This document shows positions 10,921 through 36,962 of a stretch of 37,542 nucleotides of DNA, piece by piece; position 1 is the first letter of the stretch; every line of letters starts with the position of its first letter. The DNA is from Thermodesulfovibrio sp. N1 (GTDB lineage Bacteria; Nitrospirota; Thermodesulfovibrionia; Thermodesulfovibrionales; Thermodesulfovibrionaceae): the NCBI RefSeq assembly GCF_001707915.1, contig NZ_MAVV01000015.1, positions 1 to 37,542 on the forward strand. Reading direction: 5' to 3'. Both the position numbers and the translations under genes were made by a program. Under the pieces are notes generated by a model, which saw only the letters and a program-made list of their open reading frames with translations, searched no databases and was not told the DNA's origin.

Positions 10921-11658
10921 ATGAAAATTGAAGATATAATAAAAGAAAAGCCTCATTTGCAAAGTCCTCTTGAGCTTTATGAAAAAATTAAAACTTTAAC
11001 TGACCAATGCAAAAAAGAAAAAGAAAGAGTAAAACTTGACAGTTATACCGAATTAATTGATATAGTCCTTAAAAATTTTTCCTCTGTTTTTCAAATCCCC
11101 TATGAATCAATTTCATTTTTGAAGGATGAAATTTTAAAAAGTGGTAAAAATCCTGTTAAAGATCCAGCAAGTCTATGGTCACTTCCGATTCAGAGTGAAG
11201 AACTTTCAAGGGAAGAAATTGACAGAATGCTTTTCATTTTGAGCAAACCCTTTTTTGTTTTCTTAAGAAAAGAAGGACAGAAGGCATCTTTTATGGATAC
11301 TGGAAAATGTCCAATCTGTGGAACAGACTCATCCCTTTCAATGATTGTTGAAAACAATGAAAGGGTAATGATTTGTCCTCTCTGTGAACATGGCGGAAGC
11401 TTTTTTAGAATAGGATGTCCCTATTGTTTTAATAAAAATTCAACAAGAATTGAGATACTTCTTGATGAAGAAGAAATAAGAGCAGAGCTCTGTCTTGAAT
11501 GTAATACCTATATAAAAAGCTTTAAAGAAGAACAGTATATAAAATATAAAGACCCTTTTTTAATTGATATAATCAGTCTTCCTCTTGATATAGTTGTACA
11601 GAAGCGTGGATATATAAGGCGATCATCGAATATAATCGGATTGAGAATAATTGAGTAA
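10921..11658 (+). CDS. fdhE: formate dehydrogenase accessory protein FdhE
   Basis: A 245-residue protein with an all-helical N-terminal half and a C-terminal half carrying rubredoxin-like cysteine pairs: CPIC (about residue 124), CPLC (158), CPYC (171) and CLEC (196). This is the FdhE layout. FdhE binds iron through the CxxC motifs and is needed for maturation or activation of formate dehydrogenases. GGAGG precedes the ATG. The gene ends in TAATG, sharing one base with the MoeA-type gene, so it lies in an operon with molybdenum cofactor synthesis. No formate dehydrogenase structural gene is in the window. Confidence 0.88.
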   Translation: MKIEDIIKEKPHLQSPLELYEKIKTLTDQCKKEKERVKLDSYTELIDIVLKNFSSVFQIPYESISFLKDEILKSGKNPVKDPASLWSLPIQSEELSREEIDRMLFILSKPFFVFLRKEGQKASFMDTGKCPICGTDSSLSMIVENNERVMICPLCEHGGSFFRIGCPYCFNKNSTRIEILLDEEEIRAELCLECNTYIKSFKEEQYIKYKDPFLIDIISLPLDIVVQKRGYIRRSSNIIGLRIIE

Positions 11659-13589
11659 TGAGCAAGAAAGTTTTTCATGAACTTTTATCTCTTGATGAAG
11701 CAAAGGAAAAACTTTTATCTTCTTTTAAAGAAAGGGTTTCTACCCCAATTGCCTTTGAATTAGTTCCAGTTAAAGAGTCTTTAGGAAGGATTACAGCTCA
11801 GGCAGTTACTGCTCAATTTTCCTCTCCCTATTTCCACTCCGCTGCAATGGATGGATATACTGTTAGAGCCCGTGATACCTTTCAGGCTACTGAAAGAGAA
11901 CCTGTAAGACTTAAAATCGGCGTTGATACACATTGGATTGAAACAGGAGACCCATTACCTCATGACTTTGATGCAGTAATACCAGTAGAGGATGTAAATA
12001 TAAAAGAAGGATTTATAGAGATTTACGCATCTGTGCCTCCTTACAATGATGTAAGACCAATTGGAGAAGATATTGTTGCAACAGAGCTGATTATCCCTGA
12101 AAGTCATGTTGTACGACCTGCAGATATTGGAGCAATGCTTGCAAGTGGTATAACAGAAATAAAGGTACGAAAGAAACCTATAATTGGAATTATTCCGACA
12201 GGTTCAGAACTAATTGATGTTGAAACAATTAAAGAGAGGATGCCGAACCCACCGGAACTCATAGAATATAATTCAGCTGTTTTAGGCAGTTTAGTTACTG
12301 AAGTAGGAGCAGAGCCAAAAATTTATCAAATTGTTCCCGATGAAGAAAAGGCAATAAAGAATGCCATATTAAATGCTCTAAAAGAATGTGATGTTGTCTT
12401 ACTTAATGCTGGGTCTGGATATGGAAAAGAAGATTTTACATATAAAGTTATAAATGAACTCGGAGAAATTATTATAAATGGCGTTGCAATAAAGCCAGGT
12501 AAACCCTTTATTGCAGGATTTATAGATAATAAGCCTGTTTTAGGAATTCCTGGTTATCCTGTATCAGCCTTTTTATGCTTTAACCTTTTTGTTAAGCCTA
12601 TTATAGAACTTTATCTTGGTGTATCAACAAAGAAAGAAGAACAACTCAAAGCAATACTTTCAAGACAGATTTCATCAAACATAGGTGTTGATGAATTTGT
12701 AAGAGTAAAAGTTGGAAGGGTAGGTAGTAAATACATAGTAACACCAATGGGAAGAGGAGCAGGACTGCTTATGTCTGTGGTAAGAGCAGATGGGTATATT
12801 GTTATTCCAAGAGGTTCTGAAGGCTTTTCACAGGGTACTGAGGTGGTGGTAAATTTATGGCGTAGTAAAGAGGAGATTGACAGCACTGTTGTATGTATTG
12901 GAAGTCATGACAACACCCTCGATGTTTTGTATAACTTTTTAAGAAAAAATTATCCCCATGTAACCCTTTCCTCTGCACATGTTGGTTCAATGGGTGGACT
13001 TATTGCAGTCAAAAAGGGAGAAGCTCACATGGCAGGAACTCATCTCCTTGATGAGGAAACTGGGCAGTATAATGTTCCTTTTATAAAAAAGCTTTTACTA
13101 GATAAAAAAGTTGTACTTATAAATCTTGTTTACCGAATTCAGGGGTTTATTGTGAAAAAAGGTAATCCAAAAAATATTAAAGGATTTGAAGACCTTATAA
13201 GGGAAGATGTTGTTTTCATAAACAGACAAGCTGGTTCAGGAACAAGACTTCTTCTTGATAAACATTTAAAAGAGCTTGGGATATCTTCTGAGTCTATAAA
13301 AGGTTATGAAAGGGATGAATACACCCATATGGCAGTAGCTTCAGCAGTGCTTACAGGAAGAGCTGATGTTGGATTAGGAATTTTATCTGCTGCACAGGCA
13401 TTGGGGCTTGATTTTATTCCTGTTACAGAAGAAAGATATGATATACTTATTCCTCAAGAATTCCTTGAACTTCCAATACTTCAAGCAGTTTTAAAAGTAA
13501 TAAGAGAAGATGAAGAATTTAAAAAATCAGTTCAGTCTCTTGGTGGATATGACACCCGTGATATGGGTAAAATTATTTATTCAAATTAA
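11658..13589 (+). CDS. moeA: MoeA molybdopterin molybdenumtransferase fused to a periplasmic-binding-protein-like domain
   Basis: 643 residues. Residues 1 to about 405 are MoeA: an N-terminal segment with SAAMDGYTVR and a double-psi region, the MoCF_biosynth domain with IPTGSEL and NAGSGYGKEDF, then the GIPGYPVSAF motif. Residues from about 412 to 640 are a type 2 periplasmic-binding-like domain (COG1910) with INRQAGSGTRLLLD and HMAVASAVLTGRADVGLGI, lacking a signal peptide, so it is cytoplasmic and probably binds molybdate, tungstate or a cofactor intermediate (inference). MoeA inserts molybdenum into molybdopterin-AMP. The fusion is known in archaea and various anaerobes. Its 3' end overlaps the converging NlpC/P60 gene by 4 bases. 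Confidence 0.9.
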   Translation: MSKKVFHELLSLDEAKEKLLSSFKERVSTPIAFELVPVKESLGRITAQAVTAQFSSPYFHSAAMDGYTVRARDTFQATEREPVRLKIGVDTHWIETGDPLPHDFDAVIPVEDVNIKEGFIEIYASVPPYNDVRPIGEDIVATELIIPESHVVRPADIGAMLASGITEIKVRKKPIIGIIPTGSELIDVETIKERMPNPPELIEYNSAVLGSLVTEVGAEPKIYQIVPDEEKAIKNAILNALKECDVVLLNAGSGYGKEDFTYKVINELGEIIINGVAIKPGKPFIAGFIDNKPVLGIPGYPVSAFLCFNLFVKPIIELYLGVSTKKEEQLKAILSRQISSNIGVDEFVRVKVGRVGSKYIVTPMGRGAGLLMSVVRADGYIVIPRGSEGFSQGTEVVVNLWRSKEEIDSTVVCIGSHDNTLDVLYNFLRKNYPHVTLSSAHVGSMGGLIAVKKGEAHMAGTHLLDEETGQYNVPFIKKLLLDKKVVLINLVYRIQGFIVKKGNPKNIKGFEDLIREDVVFINRQAGSGTRLLLDKHLKELGISSESIKGYERDEYTHMAVASAVLTGRADVGLGILSAAQALGLDFIPVTEERYDILIPQEFLELPILQAVLKVIREDEEFKKSVQSLGGYDTRDMGKIIYSN

Positions 13590-18342: not shown

Positions 18343-19221
18343 ATGCAAAAAATTGTGCTTGAAACAAATCTTGAAGGTGTAAAATTCCTTCGTAGAGGAA
18401 AAGTAAGAGATATTTATGAAGTGAATGATTATTTACTTATTGTTGCTACAGATAGAGTTTCTGCCTTTGATGTTGTACTTCCAAATGGAATTCCAGGGAA
18501 GGGTAGGGTATTAACGCAGATTTCTTTGTTTTGGTTTAATCAGGTAAAAGATATTATAGAAAATCATGTTGTTTCAGCAAATGTGGAAGAATTCCCAGAG
18601 TCTTTAAGAAAATATAAAGACATTCTTGAAGGAAGAAGCATGCTTGTAAGAAAGGCAACACCACTTCCTGTGGAATGTATAGTTCGTGGATATATAACTG
18701 GCTCTGGATGGAAGGATTATCAAAAAACAGGAATGGTCTGTGGAATTAAACTTCCTCCTGAACTTTTGGAATCTCAAAGACTTCCAGAACCAATTTATAC
18801 TCCAAGTACAAAGGCAGAGCAGGGTCACGATATAAATATCAGTTTTGAAGAAACCGTAAAAATTCTTGGTAAGGAAACAGCTGAAAAAATAAGGAATTTT
18901 GCCATTACTATTTATAAAAAGGCATCAGAGATTGCAGAGAAAAAAGGAATTATAATTGCTGATACAAAAATGGAATTTGGTTTTTATAATGATAAAATCA
19001 TTCTAATTGATGAGCTTTTAACGCCTGATTCTTCCCGATTCTGGTCAATGAAGGATTATTCTCCTGGAAAATCTCAAGACAGTTACGATAAGCAAATTGT
19101 AAGGGATTATTTGCTTTCAATAAAATGGGATAAAAAACCCCCTGCACCTGAGTTACCAGAAGAAATAGTAAAGAAAACTGCGGAAAGATATGAAGAAATA
19201 TTTAAGATTCTAACTTTTTAA
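18343..19221 (+). CDS. purC: phosphoribosylaminoimidazole-succinocarboxamide synthase
   Basis: 292 residues of SAICAR synthetase, the longer variant seen in many bacteria and yeast. Recognisable elements: [57 protein letters not shown] and LTPDSSRFW. It joins aspartate to CAIR in purine synthesis. Start chosen at the ATG after GGATGAGGAT. The last 20 bases overlap the converging endonuclease IV gene. Confidence 0.95.
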
Positions 19222-32010: not shown

Positions 32011-32040
32011 TTGACATAAATTTTAAATTTTTGTTTTAAT
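32011..32040 (+). promoter_or_regulatory. promoter of the TonB-receptor operon leader
   Basis: Perfect -35 TTGACA (32011-32016), an 18-base spacer and TTTAAT (32035-32040). The start point would be near 32047, giving a leader of about 147 bases before the receptor ATG. Confidence 0.6.
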
Positions 32041-32046
32041 ATTTTA

Positions 32047-32193
32047 ACCTAAGAAGGGTTTAAAAAAGGTCATGAAGGCCGTGTAAGGGAACAGTTTCCC
32101 TACACGGCTTTTTTATTGAATAAGACTCATGAAGGGTCTATGCCTCTCAGAAGGGAGCTGACATTAAAAAAATAATCAAGGAGAGGTGTAGAA
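32047..32193 (+). ncRNA. structured 5' leader with tandem hairpins, terminator and RBS sequestration (candidate riboswitch or attenuator)
   Basis: Hairpin 1: GGTC-ATGAA-GGCC (32068-32080). Hairpin 2: AGACTC-ATGAA-GGGTCT (32123-32139). Both share the loop ATGAA closed by C-G above a U-G pair. The first overlaps the 5' arm of a strong intrinsic terminator, so they exclude each other. Further on, TGCCTCTC (32141-32148) can pair over 8 bases with GAGAGGTG of the ribosome site (32181-32188), or instead fold locally as CTCTC-AGAA-GGGAG (32144-32157), freeing the site. It fits no riboswitch class I can recall; cobalamin-type conserved blocks are absent. Confidence 0.6.
32078..32114 (+). terminator. 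intrinsic terminator inside the leader
   Basis: GCCGTGTA and TACACGGC pair perfectly, then GGGAA with TTCCC beyond one bulged A, with loop CAGT (hairpin 32078-32108). Six T's follow (32109-32114). Its place between promoter and start codon implies attenuation. Confidence 0.85.
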
Positions 32194-34143
32194 ATGGTTA
32201 AGATTATTTTATTAAGTATTGCTTTGTTATTATGTTTTGTTTTTTATGTTTTCGCAGGGGAAAAAGAGAAAATACTTGATGAAATTGTTGTAACCGCTAC
32301 AAAAACTGAAAGAGAAGTCAAAGAGATACCAACAAATGTTACTGTAATAACGGAAGAAGATATTAAAAAATATGAAGCAAGAGATGTATCTGAACTTTTA
32401 AAACAAATTCCAGGTTTTAATATTTCCTATTTTGGTGGAGTCCATGCTGATATTTATGTAAGTAGTAGAGGACAGGTACCACTTACAAGAGGAGCTCAGA
32501 TTTTAGTTGACGGAATTGAATATAATAATCCTTCTGGTTATTTTAATGCTCTTGCCATACCTATAGAAAATATTGATAAAATTGAAATAATAAAAAGTCC
32601 AGCTACCTCTCTTTATGGTAATTTTGCAACAGGTGGAGTGATTAACATAATCACCAAAAAATCCAAAAAACCCTTTGAGGGTAAATTAAGTTTTTCAGGT
32701 GGCAGTTTTGACACACAAAAATACTCTGTTTTACTTACTGGAGTTTTAAAAAACTTAGAATATAACTTAGAAATGAGATATTTCAAAACGCACGGATGGC
32801 AAGAAAATAGCTGGGAAGATAATAAACTTTTGAACTTAAAATTGAAATATAATTTAAATCCTCAAACTAACATAGGATTGCATTTTAACTATGCACCAAT
32901 CGAAAATGGATATCCTGGAACACTTACAAAAAAAGAATTTCAAGAAAATCCTAGACAAACAACTCAACCATGGGGAAAGGCAGATTCATATACCTTTATT
33001 ATCGCTCCATATTTTGAAAAAATATTTTCTGATTCGAGAATATTATTTAAAATTAAGTATGGCTATCAAGATGGATGGGTAATTGATCCTGATTATTTTG
33101 AATTTGCAAACTATAATATTGTACCTGAGTTTAATTATACAATAAGTCATAAAATCGGGGATATAAAAGGAATTTTACTAATAGGTGCAGAATATCGTTA
33201 TTTAAATAATGAAAAAATAAAAGCATATTCATTTGATGGAAGTACAGGAATTATAGGACCTCTCTATCAAGATCGAACATGGAAAGATAAAACTTTCGCT
33301 TTATTTTTTCAAGAAGATCTTGAAATAATGAAAAATTTGTTTGTCTCTTTTGGGGCAAGATACGACCGTGTTGATACAGATTTTAGGGATAAAATAAAGC
33401 CTTCTCTAAATTTTAGTAAAACTCATTCTGCATTTAGTCCTAAAATAGGTATTTCTTATTTGCTATCTGATTCTTTTAACATTTTTGCCAATTATAGTCG
33501 TGGTTTCAGAAACCCTACTACTGCAATTACTGGATTCGCTAATAATCCAGATCTAAAGCCAGAAAAAATAAACAGCTATGAATTAGGACTGAGAGGACAA
33601 CCCTCAAAATGGTTTTACTATAGTGGAGCACTTTTTATTATAGATACTAAAGATAAAATAGTTAGAGTTGGAGGGCCTAGAAGAGTTGAAAATGCTGGTG
33701 AGACAATATCTAAAGGAATTGAATTTAATTTTACAATAGACTTACAAAATGGATTTTACAGTTCAATAAATTATACATATCAGGATTCGAAATATAAGGA
33801 ATATACGACCTTAGCAGGCATATCTTATAAGGATAAAAGAATTCCTCTTATACCTTCTAATATTTTAGGTATAAGTATAGGATATGAATCATCTAGTTTT
33901 GGAAAAATTGATCTAATATCAAATTACACAGATAAGAAATATATTGATTCAGCTAATACGGAATCCTTAGGTGATCATTTAATAATTGATGCTAAATACA
34001 CAAAACAAATTGGTAAAAATATGGAGATATTCCTGTCTGGTAAAAATTTGACAAATAAAAAATATGCTGAAGTGGGATTCGTAGATGCAATTTATCCTAT
34101 GCCAGGCAGAAGTATTATGGCAGGAATAAATTTAAATTTTTAA
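32194..34143 (+). CDS. TonB-dependent outer-membrane receptor
   Basis: 649 residues: signal peptide (1-22, ending VFAGE), TonB box-like DEIVVTATK, plug domain (about 40-150; VSELLKQIPGFNIS, RGAQILVDGIEYNN, IEIIKSPATSLYGNFATGGVINIITKK), then a 22-strand barrel ending in a terminal Phe (GRSIMAGINLNF) as outer-membrane proteins do. It is of the BtuB/FepA type. The DUF4198 protein and FecCD-type ABC genes behind it suggest uptake of a metal, metallophore, corrinoid or oxyanion; the substrate is not readable. Expression is probably set by the leader RNA before it. AAGGAGAGG is the ribosome site. Confidence 0.92.
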   Translation: MVKIILLSIALLLCFVFYVFAGEKEKILDEIVVTATKTEREVKEIPTNVTVITEEDIKKYEARDVSELLKQIPGFNISYFGGVHADIYVSSRGQVPLTRGAQILVDGIEYNNPSGYFNALAIPIENIDKIEIIKSPATSLYGNFATGGVINIITKKSKKPFEGKLSFSGGSFDTQKYSVLLTGVLKNLEYNLEMRYFKTHGWQENSWEDNKLLNLKLKYNLNPQTNIGLHFNYAPIENGYPGTLTKKEFQENPRQTTQPWGKADSYTFIIAPYFEKIFSDSRILFKIKYGYQDGWVIDPDYFEFANYNIVPEFNYTISHKIGDIKGILLIGAEYRYLNNEKIKAYSFDGSTGIIGPLYQDRTWKDKTFALFFQEDLEIMKNLFVSFGARYDRVDTDFRDKIKPSLNFSKTHSAFSPKIGISYLLSDSFNIFANYSRGFRNPTTAITGFANNPDLKPEKINSYELGLRGQPSKWFYYSGALFIIDTKDKIVRVGGPRRVENAGETISKGIEFNFTIDLQNGFYSSINYTYQDSKYKEYTTLAGISYKDKRIPLIPSNILGISIGYESSSFGKIDLISNYTDKKYIDSANTESLGDHLIIDAKYTKQIGKNMEIFLSGKNLTNKKYAEVGFVDAIYPMPGRSIMAGINLNF

Positions 34144-34184: not shown

Positions 34185-35042
34185 ATGAAAAAAATCAATA
34201 AATTATTAATAACAATGATAATTTTTACTTTTTTATCCCCTAATTTTAGCAATTTAGCAAATGCTCATGACAGATGGTTGATTTCTTCAAAACCTTTTGC
34301 CAAAATCAACGATTTAGTTCCAGTTGAATTTTGTGTTGGACATGGATTTGAATCTGAGGCAGCTCCCAGTGAATGGTGGCTTACAGACTTTTATTTACTT
34401 GATCCTGATGGAATTGTAAGTAAATTAGAATTTAATTTTGACAGAGATAAACAAAAATCTGCCTTATCTAAATTTAAAGCAAATAAGGAAGGAATTTATA
34501 TAATTTATTCTGTGGCAGAAAACATATACTGGGTTAGAACGCATGACAATAAATATATTCAATTCAAAGACAAAATAGAGATAGATAAATCACAGATTAA
34601 GAGAACTTTTATTGGTTGGCAATATAGTAAAACTTTTATAAGGGTGGGGAAAACAAAAAGAGGTGATTATGATAAAAGTGTGGGTGGACTTATAGAAATA
34701 ATTCCTCTTAAAGATCCTACAAATCTTAAAGTTGGAGAATACTTACCAATTAAAGTTTTATCTAATGGCAAAAATACTAATTGGAATGTTGGAGTAGTTG
34801 CCCTATACAAAGGATTTAAAGGTGAAAAATGGGCTTATAGTTATTTTTCTGAATATCCTGGAGTGATATATATTAAAGAAGGAATAGGGAAAGACCCTTA
34901 TTTTAAAATTCCTATTGATAAAAAAGGTTTCTGGTTTATAAAGGCTTTTCGAATGATGGATAGAGAAGTATTATCTGAAAAGAAATATGGTGAACATGAT
35001 GAATACTTTTTTGAGGCAACAATTACATTTTATGTGAAATAA
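34185..35042 (+). CDS. DUF4198 family periplasmic protein
   Basis: 285 residues with a signal peptide ending ANAHD; the mature N-terminus HDRWL (metal-ligand-like His at the start) is typical of DUF4198. Two beta-sandwich-like parts follow, with FVGHGFESE replaced here by FCVGHGFESE and a late LKVGEYLPIKVL segment that recalls the Ig-like half of the family. DUF4198 proteins often sit beside nickel or cobalt uptake genes and are thought to bind metal in the periplasm. AAGGAGG precedes the ATG, 41 bases after the receptor, so they form an operon. Confidence 0.82.
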   Translation: MKKINKLLITMIIFTFLSPNFSNLANAHDRWLISSKPFAKINDLVPVEFCVGHGFESEAAPSEWWLTDFYLLDPDGIVSKLEFNFDRDKQKSALSKFKANKEGIYIIYSVAENIYWVRTHDNKYIQFKDKIEIDKSQIKRTFIGWQYSKTFIRVGKTKRGDYDKSVGGLIEIIPLKDPTNLKVGEYLPIKVLSNGKNTNWNVGVVALYKGFKGEKWAYSYFSEYPGVIYIKEGIGKDPYFKIPIDKKGFWFIKAFRMMDREVLSEKKYGEHDEYFFEATITFYVK

Positions 35043-35190: not shown

Positions 35191-36192
35191 ATGAAAACTA
35201 TTAAAGCGATTTTGATTCTTCTTTCTCCAATTTTCGTTGGATGGTTTGCGCTTTTTCTTGGCGCTTATGAAGTTACACCTTTGATGGTTTTAAAAATTTT
35301 ATTAAACGAGACTTTGCATATATTTGAAATTGGTGATATTCCAGAAAAAGCAATAGTCATAGATATAAGACTTCCGAGAGTTATACTTGCTGGAATTGTT
35401 GGAGCTTGCCTTTCTGGTGCAGGTGTTACACTTCAGGGAATATTCCGAAACCCTCTTGTTGACCCTTTTATTTTAGGTATCTCAGCTGGTGCAGCCTTTG
35501 GATGTGCAATAACAATTGGTTTTTTAAGTAATATTCCTATTCAATTTATGGCATTTGTTTTTGCTGTCTCTGCGGTAGTTATTGCCTATACAGTTGCAAG
35601 AACTCAGGGTGAGGTGAGCCGTCTTCCACTTATTCTTTCAGGAGTTATTGTCTCAGCCTTTTTTACAGCATTGGTTTCAATTGTTAAGTTTCTGGTTGAC
35701 CCCCATAAACTTCAAAGTATTGTTTATTGGCTTATAGGAAGTTTTTCCCTTGCTGACTGGAAGGCAGTAAAAGTCTCCTTTGTTGGTGTTATACTCGGGA
35801 TTTTACCTATTTTTCTTATGCGTTGGAGATTAAATGTAATGAGCATGGGAGAAGAGGAAGCTAAAGCGTTGGGAGTTAATGTATTAAGAGAGAGAGTTCT
35901 TTTCATTGGATTTTCCACACTGGCTGTGGCAGTAGCGACCTCTCTTTGCGGAATTATTGGATGGGTAGGCCTCATGGTGCCTCATCTTGTAAGAATGCTT
36001 ACAGGTCCTGACCATAAAACTCTTGTGCCCCTTAGTTTTGCTGCTGGGGCATCCTTTATGATTGCAGCAGATACAATATCGCGCACCCTTACAAGTTTTG
36101 ATATCCCTGTTGGAATTATTACAGCTCTTACAGGTGCACCATTTTTTATTTATTTAATGAAACGTAGTGGTAAAGAGGCATGGGGTAAATAA
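35191..36192 (+). CDS. FecCD/BtuC-family ABC transporter permease
   Basis: 333 residues with about ten membrane helices and the family signatures RLPRVILAGIVGACLSGAG, LQGIFRNPLVDPFILGISAGAAFG and IIGWVGLMVPHLVRM, the last being the ATPase-contact (EAA-like) region. It carries iron-siderophore, haem, cobalamin or molybdate-type substrates. It shares one base (TAATG) with the ATPase gene. No ribosome site is visible upstream. The 148 bases between it and the DUF4198 gene hold no gene, only a very short frame. Confidence 0.92.
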   Translation: MKTIKAILILLSPIFVGWFALFLGAYEVTPLMVLKILLNETLHIFEIGDIPEKAIVIDIRLPRVILAGIVGACLSGAGVTLQGIFRNPLVDPFILGISAGAAFGCAITIGFLSNIPIQFMAFVFAVSAVVIAYTVARTQGEVSRLPLILSGVIVSAFFTALVSIVKFLVDPHKLQSIVYWLIGSFSLADWKAVKVSFVGVILGILPIFLMRWRLNVMSMGEEEAKALGVNVLRERVLFIGFSTLAVAVATSLCGIIGWVGLMVPHLVRMLTGPDHKTLVPLSFAAGASFMIAADTISRTLTSFDIPVGIITALTGAPFFIYLMKRSGKEAWGK

Positions 36193-36962
36193 TGCTTAAT
36201 CTTAAAGAAGTTTATTTTAGACATAAAAACCAGACTACGGATGTTTTAAAAGGAATAAGTTTTAATGCAGAAAAGGGTTCTATTACTACAATTCTTGGAC
36301 CAAATGGTTCTGGCAAAACAACTCTCTTTAAATGTATTACAGGACTCTGGAAGTATTATAAAGGAGAGATTAAAGTTGATAGAGTTTCAATTGATAAACT
36401 CTCCTTTAAAAAAAGAGCAAGGCTTTTTTCAGTTGTCCCGCAGGAGCATGAGCCACCTTTTCCCTACTCTGTTTTTGATGTTGTGCTTATGGGAAGGGCA
36501 AGCTATATAGGAGTTTTCTCATCTCCGAGTAAAAAGGACTATGAAAAAGCAGAAACTGCATTAAAAACAGTTGGAATTGAACATTTAAAAAATATCCCTT
36601 ACACTAAAATAAGTGGTGGTGAACGACAGCTTACTTTAATTGCAAGGGCAATAGTCCAAGAATCTCCTGTTATGCTTCTTGATGAGCCTATAAGTCATCT
36701 TGATTTTAGAAATCAGATAAATATTCTCAAAAAAATTAAAGAAATTGCATTAATTCGCGGAATTACAGTTGTAATGACCCTTCATGACCCTAATCTTGCA
36801 AGCCTTTTTTCAGATAAGGTAGTAGTTATTAATTCAGGAAGTAAAGTAGCAGAAGGACTGCCTAAGGAGATAATCACTGAAGATTTGATTAAAAGGGTTT
36901 ATGATATTGAGGTAAAGAAAGCAGATATTGACGGACAAAGCATAATTTGTCCTGTATTGTAA
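36192..36962 (+). CDS. FecE/BtuD-family ABC transporter ATPase
   Basis: 256 residues with Walker A GPNGSGKTT (about 36-44), Q-loop VVPQEHE, signature SGGERQL, Walker B VMLLDEPISHLD and switch His in MTLHDP. It pairs with the permease just upstream. The cluster lacks a substrate-binding protein of the FecB/BtuF type within this window. Confidence 0.93.
   Translation: MLNLKEVYFRHKNQTTDVLKGISFNAEKGSITTILGPNGSGKTTLFKCITGLWKYYKGEIKVDRVSIDKLSFKKRARLFSVVPQEHEPPFPYSVFDVVLMGRASYIGVFSSPSKKDYEKAETALKTVGIEHLKNIPYTKISGGERQLTLIARAIVQESPVMLLDEPISHLDFRNQINILKKIKEIALIRGITVVMTLHDPNLASLFSDKVVVINSGSKVAEGLPKEIITEDLIKRVYDIEVKKADIDGQSIICPVL

Follow-up and report, generated by a model that had tools for sequence, protein, structure and literature searches.

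A conserved leader of paired hairpins that may control nickel-uptake genes at the RNA level in Thermodesulfovibrionales

In bacteria, the known repressors of nickel uptake, NikR among them, are regulators that bind DNA. The stretch of Thermodesulfovibrio sp. N1 DNA analyzed here (the window; contig NZ_MAVV01000015.1, 37,542 nucleotides) contains a TonB-dependent receptor operon whose leader had drawn attention in an earlier note made from the letters alone, and the question raised by this locus is how such a leader acts and what it responds to. The leader and the genes that it would control comprise the following features.

32011–32016, + strand: -35 box TTGACA (sequence)
32046–32060, + strand: hairpin H1, AACC[UAAGAA]GGGUU, first member of pair 1 (sequence and fold)
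32068–32080, + strand: hairpin H2, GGUC[AUGAA]GGCC, second member of pair 1 (sequence, fold, and covariation)
32078–32114, + strand: intrinsic terminator, stem 32078–32108 plus U-tract 32109–32114 (fold)
32123–32139, + strand: hairpin H3, AGACUC[AUGAA]GGGUCU, first member of pair 2 (sequence and fold)
32138–32148, + strand: anti-RBS strand CUAUGCCUCUC, partner of 32181–32191, which excludes H4 (fold)
32144–32157, + strand: hairpin H4, CUCUC[AGAA]GGGAG, second member of pair 2 (sequence and fold)
32181–32191, + strand: ribosome-site strand GAGAGGUGUAG, paired with 32138–32148 (fold, 11-bp helix)
32194–34143, + strand: TonB-dependent receptor, the first controlled gene
34185–35042, + strand: DUF4198 protein
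35191–36192, + strand: FecCD-type ABC permease
36192–36962, + strand: ABC transporter ATPase

Elsewhere in the window, positions 11658–13589 encode a MoeA-type molybdopterin biosynthesis fusion protein (NF011068).

The whole leader (32046–32193) holds four hairpins arranged as two pairs, one on each side of the terminator, and in all four the loop ends in GAA and is closed by a C-G pair (consensus C[(A)NGAA]G). The earlier note had described two hairpins with the same AUGAA pentaloop flanking a strong terminator, and these were read at 32068–32080 and 32123–32139; its view that the hairpin is a repeated unit was right about the repetition, but the unit is a tandem pair rather than a single hairpin, H1 and H4 having been missed. 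The RNA is predicted to start near 32046, 30 nt past the TTGACA, which places H1 at the RNA 5' end. A weak -10 box (TTTTAA) lies 17 nt from TTGACA, and a generic promoter scan of the window did not return the TTGACA promoter at 32011–32016. The TTGACA itself was nonetheless read there, and the arrangement TTGACA-17-TTTAAT followed by H1 is repeated in the leaders of relatives.

Each pair is mutually exclusive with another fold. Pair 1 (32046–32080) excludes the intrinsic terminator; positions 32078–32080 are common to the H2 3' arm and the terminator, which can extend into the H2 loop, and the previously claimed overlap of this arm (32077–32080) with the terminator 5' arm is real in the sequence. 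Pair 2 (32123–32157) excludes the 11-bp ribosome-site helix, the 5' arm of H4 being part of the anti-RBS strand. The earlier note had seen part of this ribosome-site pairing, as a helix of 8 bases instead of 11 bp. H1 and H2 together amounted to -7.4 kcal/mol (z -1.3) vs -20.9 kcal/mol (z -5.6) for the terminator, and the energetically favored folds in the window leader are the OFF folds.

Comparison with relatives showed that this arrangement is conserved. A scan for two such hairpins no more than 22 nt apart yielded 49 pairs in 1.32 Mb of relatives' loci and none in five local shuffles, and a loop-only pattern (CCACGAAGG...GAAGG...TTTTT) applied to 198 Nitrospirota genomes revealed such leaders in about 15 Thermodesulfovibrionales genomes, with few matches to the reversed pattern. 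Stems covary in homologous leaders, the point on which the earlier note had staked its proposal: for 39 aligned pairs, 98.4% of cells were paired and 67 two-sided changes were counted vs 23.6 after shuffling, a figure that is inflated when taken alone because the pairs were preselected for stems (loops of 4 nt were padded with N). A set of 21 methyltransferase leaders, chosen by protein profile and therefore free of stem-selection bias, contained a mean of 2.7 hairpins, compared to 0.02 in shuffled sequences and none on the opposite strand; the count for four Thermodesulfovibrio leaders includes one hairpin formed by the tip of the terminator itself. Of the 21 loci, 12 were newly seen, and 10 of the 12 hold at least two hairpins.

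The loops and linkers varied among relatives. ACGAA is the loop of most H1 hairpins, and AGAA or UGAA that of many H2 hairpins, with AUGAA and AAGAA also occurring, and the linkers within pairs are mostly 0–9 nt but about 30–50 nt in some. The 5' arm plus loop of H1 (or H2) has its reverse complement in the terminator 3' arm in most relatives, for example AGCCACGAAGGC with GCUUUCGUGGCU, and loop position 2 covaries with the terminator arm (AU with CAUGG, n = 16; AC with GUGG, n = 21; two exceptions). The terminator overlaps H2 in Thermodesulfovibrio leaders, as in the window, and H1 in many other relatives. The second layer behaved similarly in that the anti-RBS arm paired with its own RBS in 15 leaders at -17.4 vs -14.7 kcal/mol when permuted, and 0 of 5000 permutations was as strong; these leaders are related, and kinship inflates all of the permutation tests. 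In some leaders H4 and the RBS are separated by a long insert, and the anti-RBS complementarity is nevertheless retained. The earlier suggestion of an undescribed regulatory RNA with repeated hairpins and two control layers on a metal-uptake operon is thereby supported.

Several further structures were observed. Several Thermodesulfovibrio leaders (L033 1950–2090, L135, L160 7440–7560, and L053 4730–4840) have acquired an interspersed repeat (GTCATCCTGAAGGAC...CCGAAGGATCTTCTCC) downstream of H4 and ahead of the RBS, and they too keep the anti-RBS complementarity. An extra hairpin with the loop C[NNGAA]G, such as CCUGAAC[UCGAA]GUUCAGG, precedes pair 1 by ∼45–50 nt in many leaders, including the methyltransferase leaders L243, L244, L245, L248, and L249. 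Two full modules of pair plus terminator stand in series before one operon at other loci (L206 560–714, L207, L208, L212, and L216), resembling tandem riboswitches.

We searched for the element with a covariance model, R1, which matched the window at 32046–32081 with 30.2 bits (the window row is among the R1 training sequences). Matches were obtained in 39 of 149 Thermodesulfovibrionales genomes, of which about 34 are credible and five were discarded as lying inside coding sequence; absences are uncertain because the genome search scored a limited number of first-look candidates. Model matches in G369, G345, G522, G061, G066, G250, G258, G284, and G449 were discarded as coding sequence or coding repeats. 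In the Desulfobacterota (247 genomes), two matches look real (L217 and L218), with L073 as one more, and the copies in L217 precede CbiM and an outer-membrane protein gene. A covariance search for paired hairpins upstream of uptake genes had been suggested beforehand, and the element indeed recurs before TonB and Ni/Co-uptake genes. Its first genes include TonB receptors, TonB with ExbB/ExbD, CbiM with a PDGLE protein, and a NicO-like transporter, as well as DUF4198, DUF3842, a MetA-type outer-membrane protein, a methyltransferase, an ABC-3 permease operon, and an epimerase. Genes for CooC-like ATPases lie near element loci, as do CobN and ChlI-like genes at many loci.

The window leader is the single R1 match in its own genome. 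A second, divergent element in that genome precedes a class I methyltransferase gene (contig C11, ∼18969–19079; L263 1469–1570) and has the hairpins GAUC[UGAA]GAUC and GUGGUC[AUGAA]GGCCAC plus a terminator. The methyltransferase family (alignment A5; e.g., L183:829–1572, L060:2284–2991, and L230:12563–13255) is found nearly always directly behind the element, and R1 matched 22 of the 36 genomes that carry it (p 2e-7). Its invariant residues are W21, Y22, W25, H28, Y31, H32, H123, H180, and H215; the predicted model shows an ordinary class I methyltransferase fold with no telling structural match, and the role of the family is perhaps metal-related. Another family, a 66-residue protein with the motif HW-EHN-EH (L217:9345–9926, alignment A6), adjoins Ni/Co transport genes, occurs in 110 of the 149 genomes, and had no match in a Pfam search. 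Close homologues of the transporter are present in Thermodesulfobacterium (L032, L037, L040, and L042; permease 74–86% identical), and an R1 search of these operon homologues gave no match; transfer of the operon between phyla thus seems to leave the leader behind.

The element could not be assigned to a described class. Rfam 15 contained no family above the gathering threshold for it, in agreement with the earlier note, which had been unable to match it to a known class; matches below threshold in relaxed cmscan runs (E up to 10 and 5) were unrelated and inconsistent, and guanidine-II (RF01068) was absent from them. No published description was found in the open literature, preprints and most subscription journals being outside the search. 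RNA control of Ni/Co transport is familiar from the NiCo (czcD) riboswitch, a larger four-way junction that activates efflux on excess metal; it gave no Rfam match in the leader. The closest resemblance is to leaders targeted by ANTAR proteins (EutV, NasR, and AmiR), in which, too, two small hairpins have loops that are conserved and stems that vary, one of the hairpins is incompatible with an intrinsic terminator, and the genes are switched ON upon protein binding (PMC3369931). In ANTAR targets, however, both loops are hexaloops with A1 and G4, and the short linker may span about 5–12 nt, limits that were measured for one leader (PMC3369931). The C[(A)NGAA]G loop of 4–5 nt departs from the hexaloop rule, the linkers of 0 to about 50 nt may range more widely than ANTAR proteins tolerate, and the element often has a second pair controlling the ribosome site and is directed at Ni/Co-uptake targets. 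It appears to be a dual-hairpin antitermination type of leader outside the known families tested.

How such a leader would operate follows from the exclusive folds. A hairpin of one type relieves both layers, terminator and ribosome site, and because the hairpins and the OFF folds exclude one another at both, whatever stabilizes the hairpins is predicted to turn the genes ON. In uptake genes the ON state is expected under metal scarcity; a metal that bound the hairpins would have the wrong sign and an apo-protein the right one, which suits a protein factor. We propose, at about even confidence, that the leader is a cis-regulatory RNA of a nickel-uptake regulon that works in two layers, by antitermination and by ribosome-site release, through a trans-acting factor. 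Without the factor the stable folds would form, the terminator invading hairpin 2 (hairpin 1 in many relatives) and the 5' arm of hairpin 4 covering the ribosome site, such that the uptake genes would be OFF. When nickel is scarce the factor, most likely a dimeric, nickel-free RNA-binding protein, would bind the C[(A)NGAA]G loops of a pair and hold its hairpins, so that pair 1 would block the terminator and pair 2 would free the ribosome site, turning the genes ON. Repeated small hairpins, variable linkers, and a narrow taxonomic range would also fit a protein factor.

The candidate factors that we examined were rejected. ANTAR proteins (PF03861) gave 0 matches in all of the element-bearing genomes tested, and positive-control genomes scored. 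The methyltransferase is strongly linked to the element, yet it is absent from a single-contig genome (G002) that has the element. The small HW-EHN-EH (HN-motif) protein occurs also in NikR genomes and is absent from Thermodesulfovibrio. CsrA recognizes GGA loops, a consensus that the loops of the element do not match.

This failure of the protein candidates lends some weight to a small-molecule riboswitch, in which each pair would be a minimal guanidine-II-like aptamer whose ligand reports the need for metal and turns the genes ON. The guanidine-II riboswitch provides the precedent, with two stem loops having ACGR loops closed by G-C (PMC5486947), and this RNA (mini-ykkC) is also an ON switch, built from two small hairpins that resemble each other and precede a terminator or RBS. 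The element is similar in its two small hairpins, whose conserved loops are nearly identical while stems and linkers vary, in acting through either a terminator or the RBS, and in its ON polarity, but its loops are (A)NGAA closed by C-G rather than ACGR closed by G-C, and it precedes Ni/Co-uptake genes and not guanidine carriers. Most of its loops are not self-complementary, so loop-loop kissing in the guanidine-II style would be unexpected; the conserved core is limited to the loops and the distribution is narrow, mostly one order. Direct nickel sensing would again have the wrong sign, binding switching uptake ON. A riboswitch of this kind is a possibility that we consider unlikely but take seriously. 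The earlier note had left the choice between riboswitch and protein-binding site undecided, and given the ON polarity, a protein antiterminator of the sort that acts on ANTAR targets is no less likely than a riboswitch.

A search for the NikR_C domain found NikR in 35 of the 149 Thermodesulfovibrionales genomes, with a match in 0 of 41 genomes carrying a credible element vs 35 of 108 without one (Fisher p 2e-6, uncorrected for kinship); the split runs largely by family and thus represents few independent events, and many genomes have neither. At the two NikR loci inspected, nikR stands directly before genes that carry the element elsewhere, an outer-membrane gene at L283 and CbiM plus PDGLE genes at L284. 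NikR regulates nikMQO and nikK in deltaproteobacteria (PMC545781), and its regulon likewise covers CbiM-like nikM, nikK-like periplasmic proteins, and outer-membrane proteins (PMC545781). NikR is a DNA-binding repressor, whereas the element would act within the transcript and belongs to genomes that gave no NikR match. As for a nickel regulon, the targets of the element are Ni-transport gene families and its distribution is complementary to that of NikR. Cobalamin riboswitches are separate from the element within the same genomes; in the genome of the window they are located at C32:6243–6419 and C56:8768–8944 (both on the - strand), the former adjoining a different TonB receptor. Nickel is favored over cobalt as the signal because of the gene set, the mutual exclusion with NikR, and these separate riboswitches. 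Of the metals and corrinoids that the earlier note had in view, the evidence points to a metal, nickel, and not to corrinoids.

The same RNA mechanism could instead serve a cobalt, general divalent-metal, or corrinoid regulon. Members of the CbiM family transport either Ni or Co, many element loci have CobN and ChlI-like genes nearby, and the element is found on an ABC-3 operon (and on an epimerase). Against this stand the complementarity to NikR, the separate location of the cobalamin riboswitches, and the NicO-like transporter and CooC-like ATPase nearby, and we judge a signal other than nickel to be rather improbable.

Attenuation by a translated leader peptide would read AUGAAGG as start codons; H2 of the window does read ATG AAG GCC GTG TAA, and some relatives have His-rich readings such as MKAHHHEGG. 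An AUG is, however, lacking from the ACGAA loop of most H1 hairpins and from the AGAA or UGAA loop of many H2 hairpins, and there is no conserved reading frame or ribosome site, which makes this explanation very improbable. The low stability of H1 and H2 by themselves (-7.4 kcal/mol, z -1.3) would fit chance hairpins without regulation beside an ordinary terminator, but the pair scan, the covariation, the anti-RBS coevolution, the methyltransferase leaders, the loop/terminator covariation, and the recurrence found all argue otherwise and leave this account a negligible probability.

With nickel as the favored signal and a protein as the probable factor, RNA-level regulation may have replaced NikR in part of the order, by means of a new family of sensor proteins or a new class of riboswitch, a proposition whose chances we regard as evenly balanced. 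If true, part of an order of anaerobes would control nickel uptake at the RNA level and not by NikR-like DNA-binding regulators, and an ANTAR-like hairpin-pair mechanism would operate without ANTAR proteins, implying that an RNA-binding metal sensor or a riboswitch is yet to be found. The element would also mark the methyltransferase family, DUF4198, and DUF3842 as members of a nickel/cobalt regulon.
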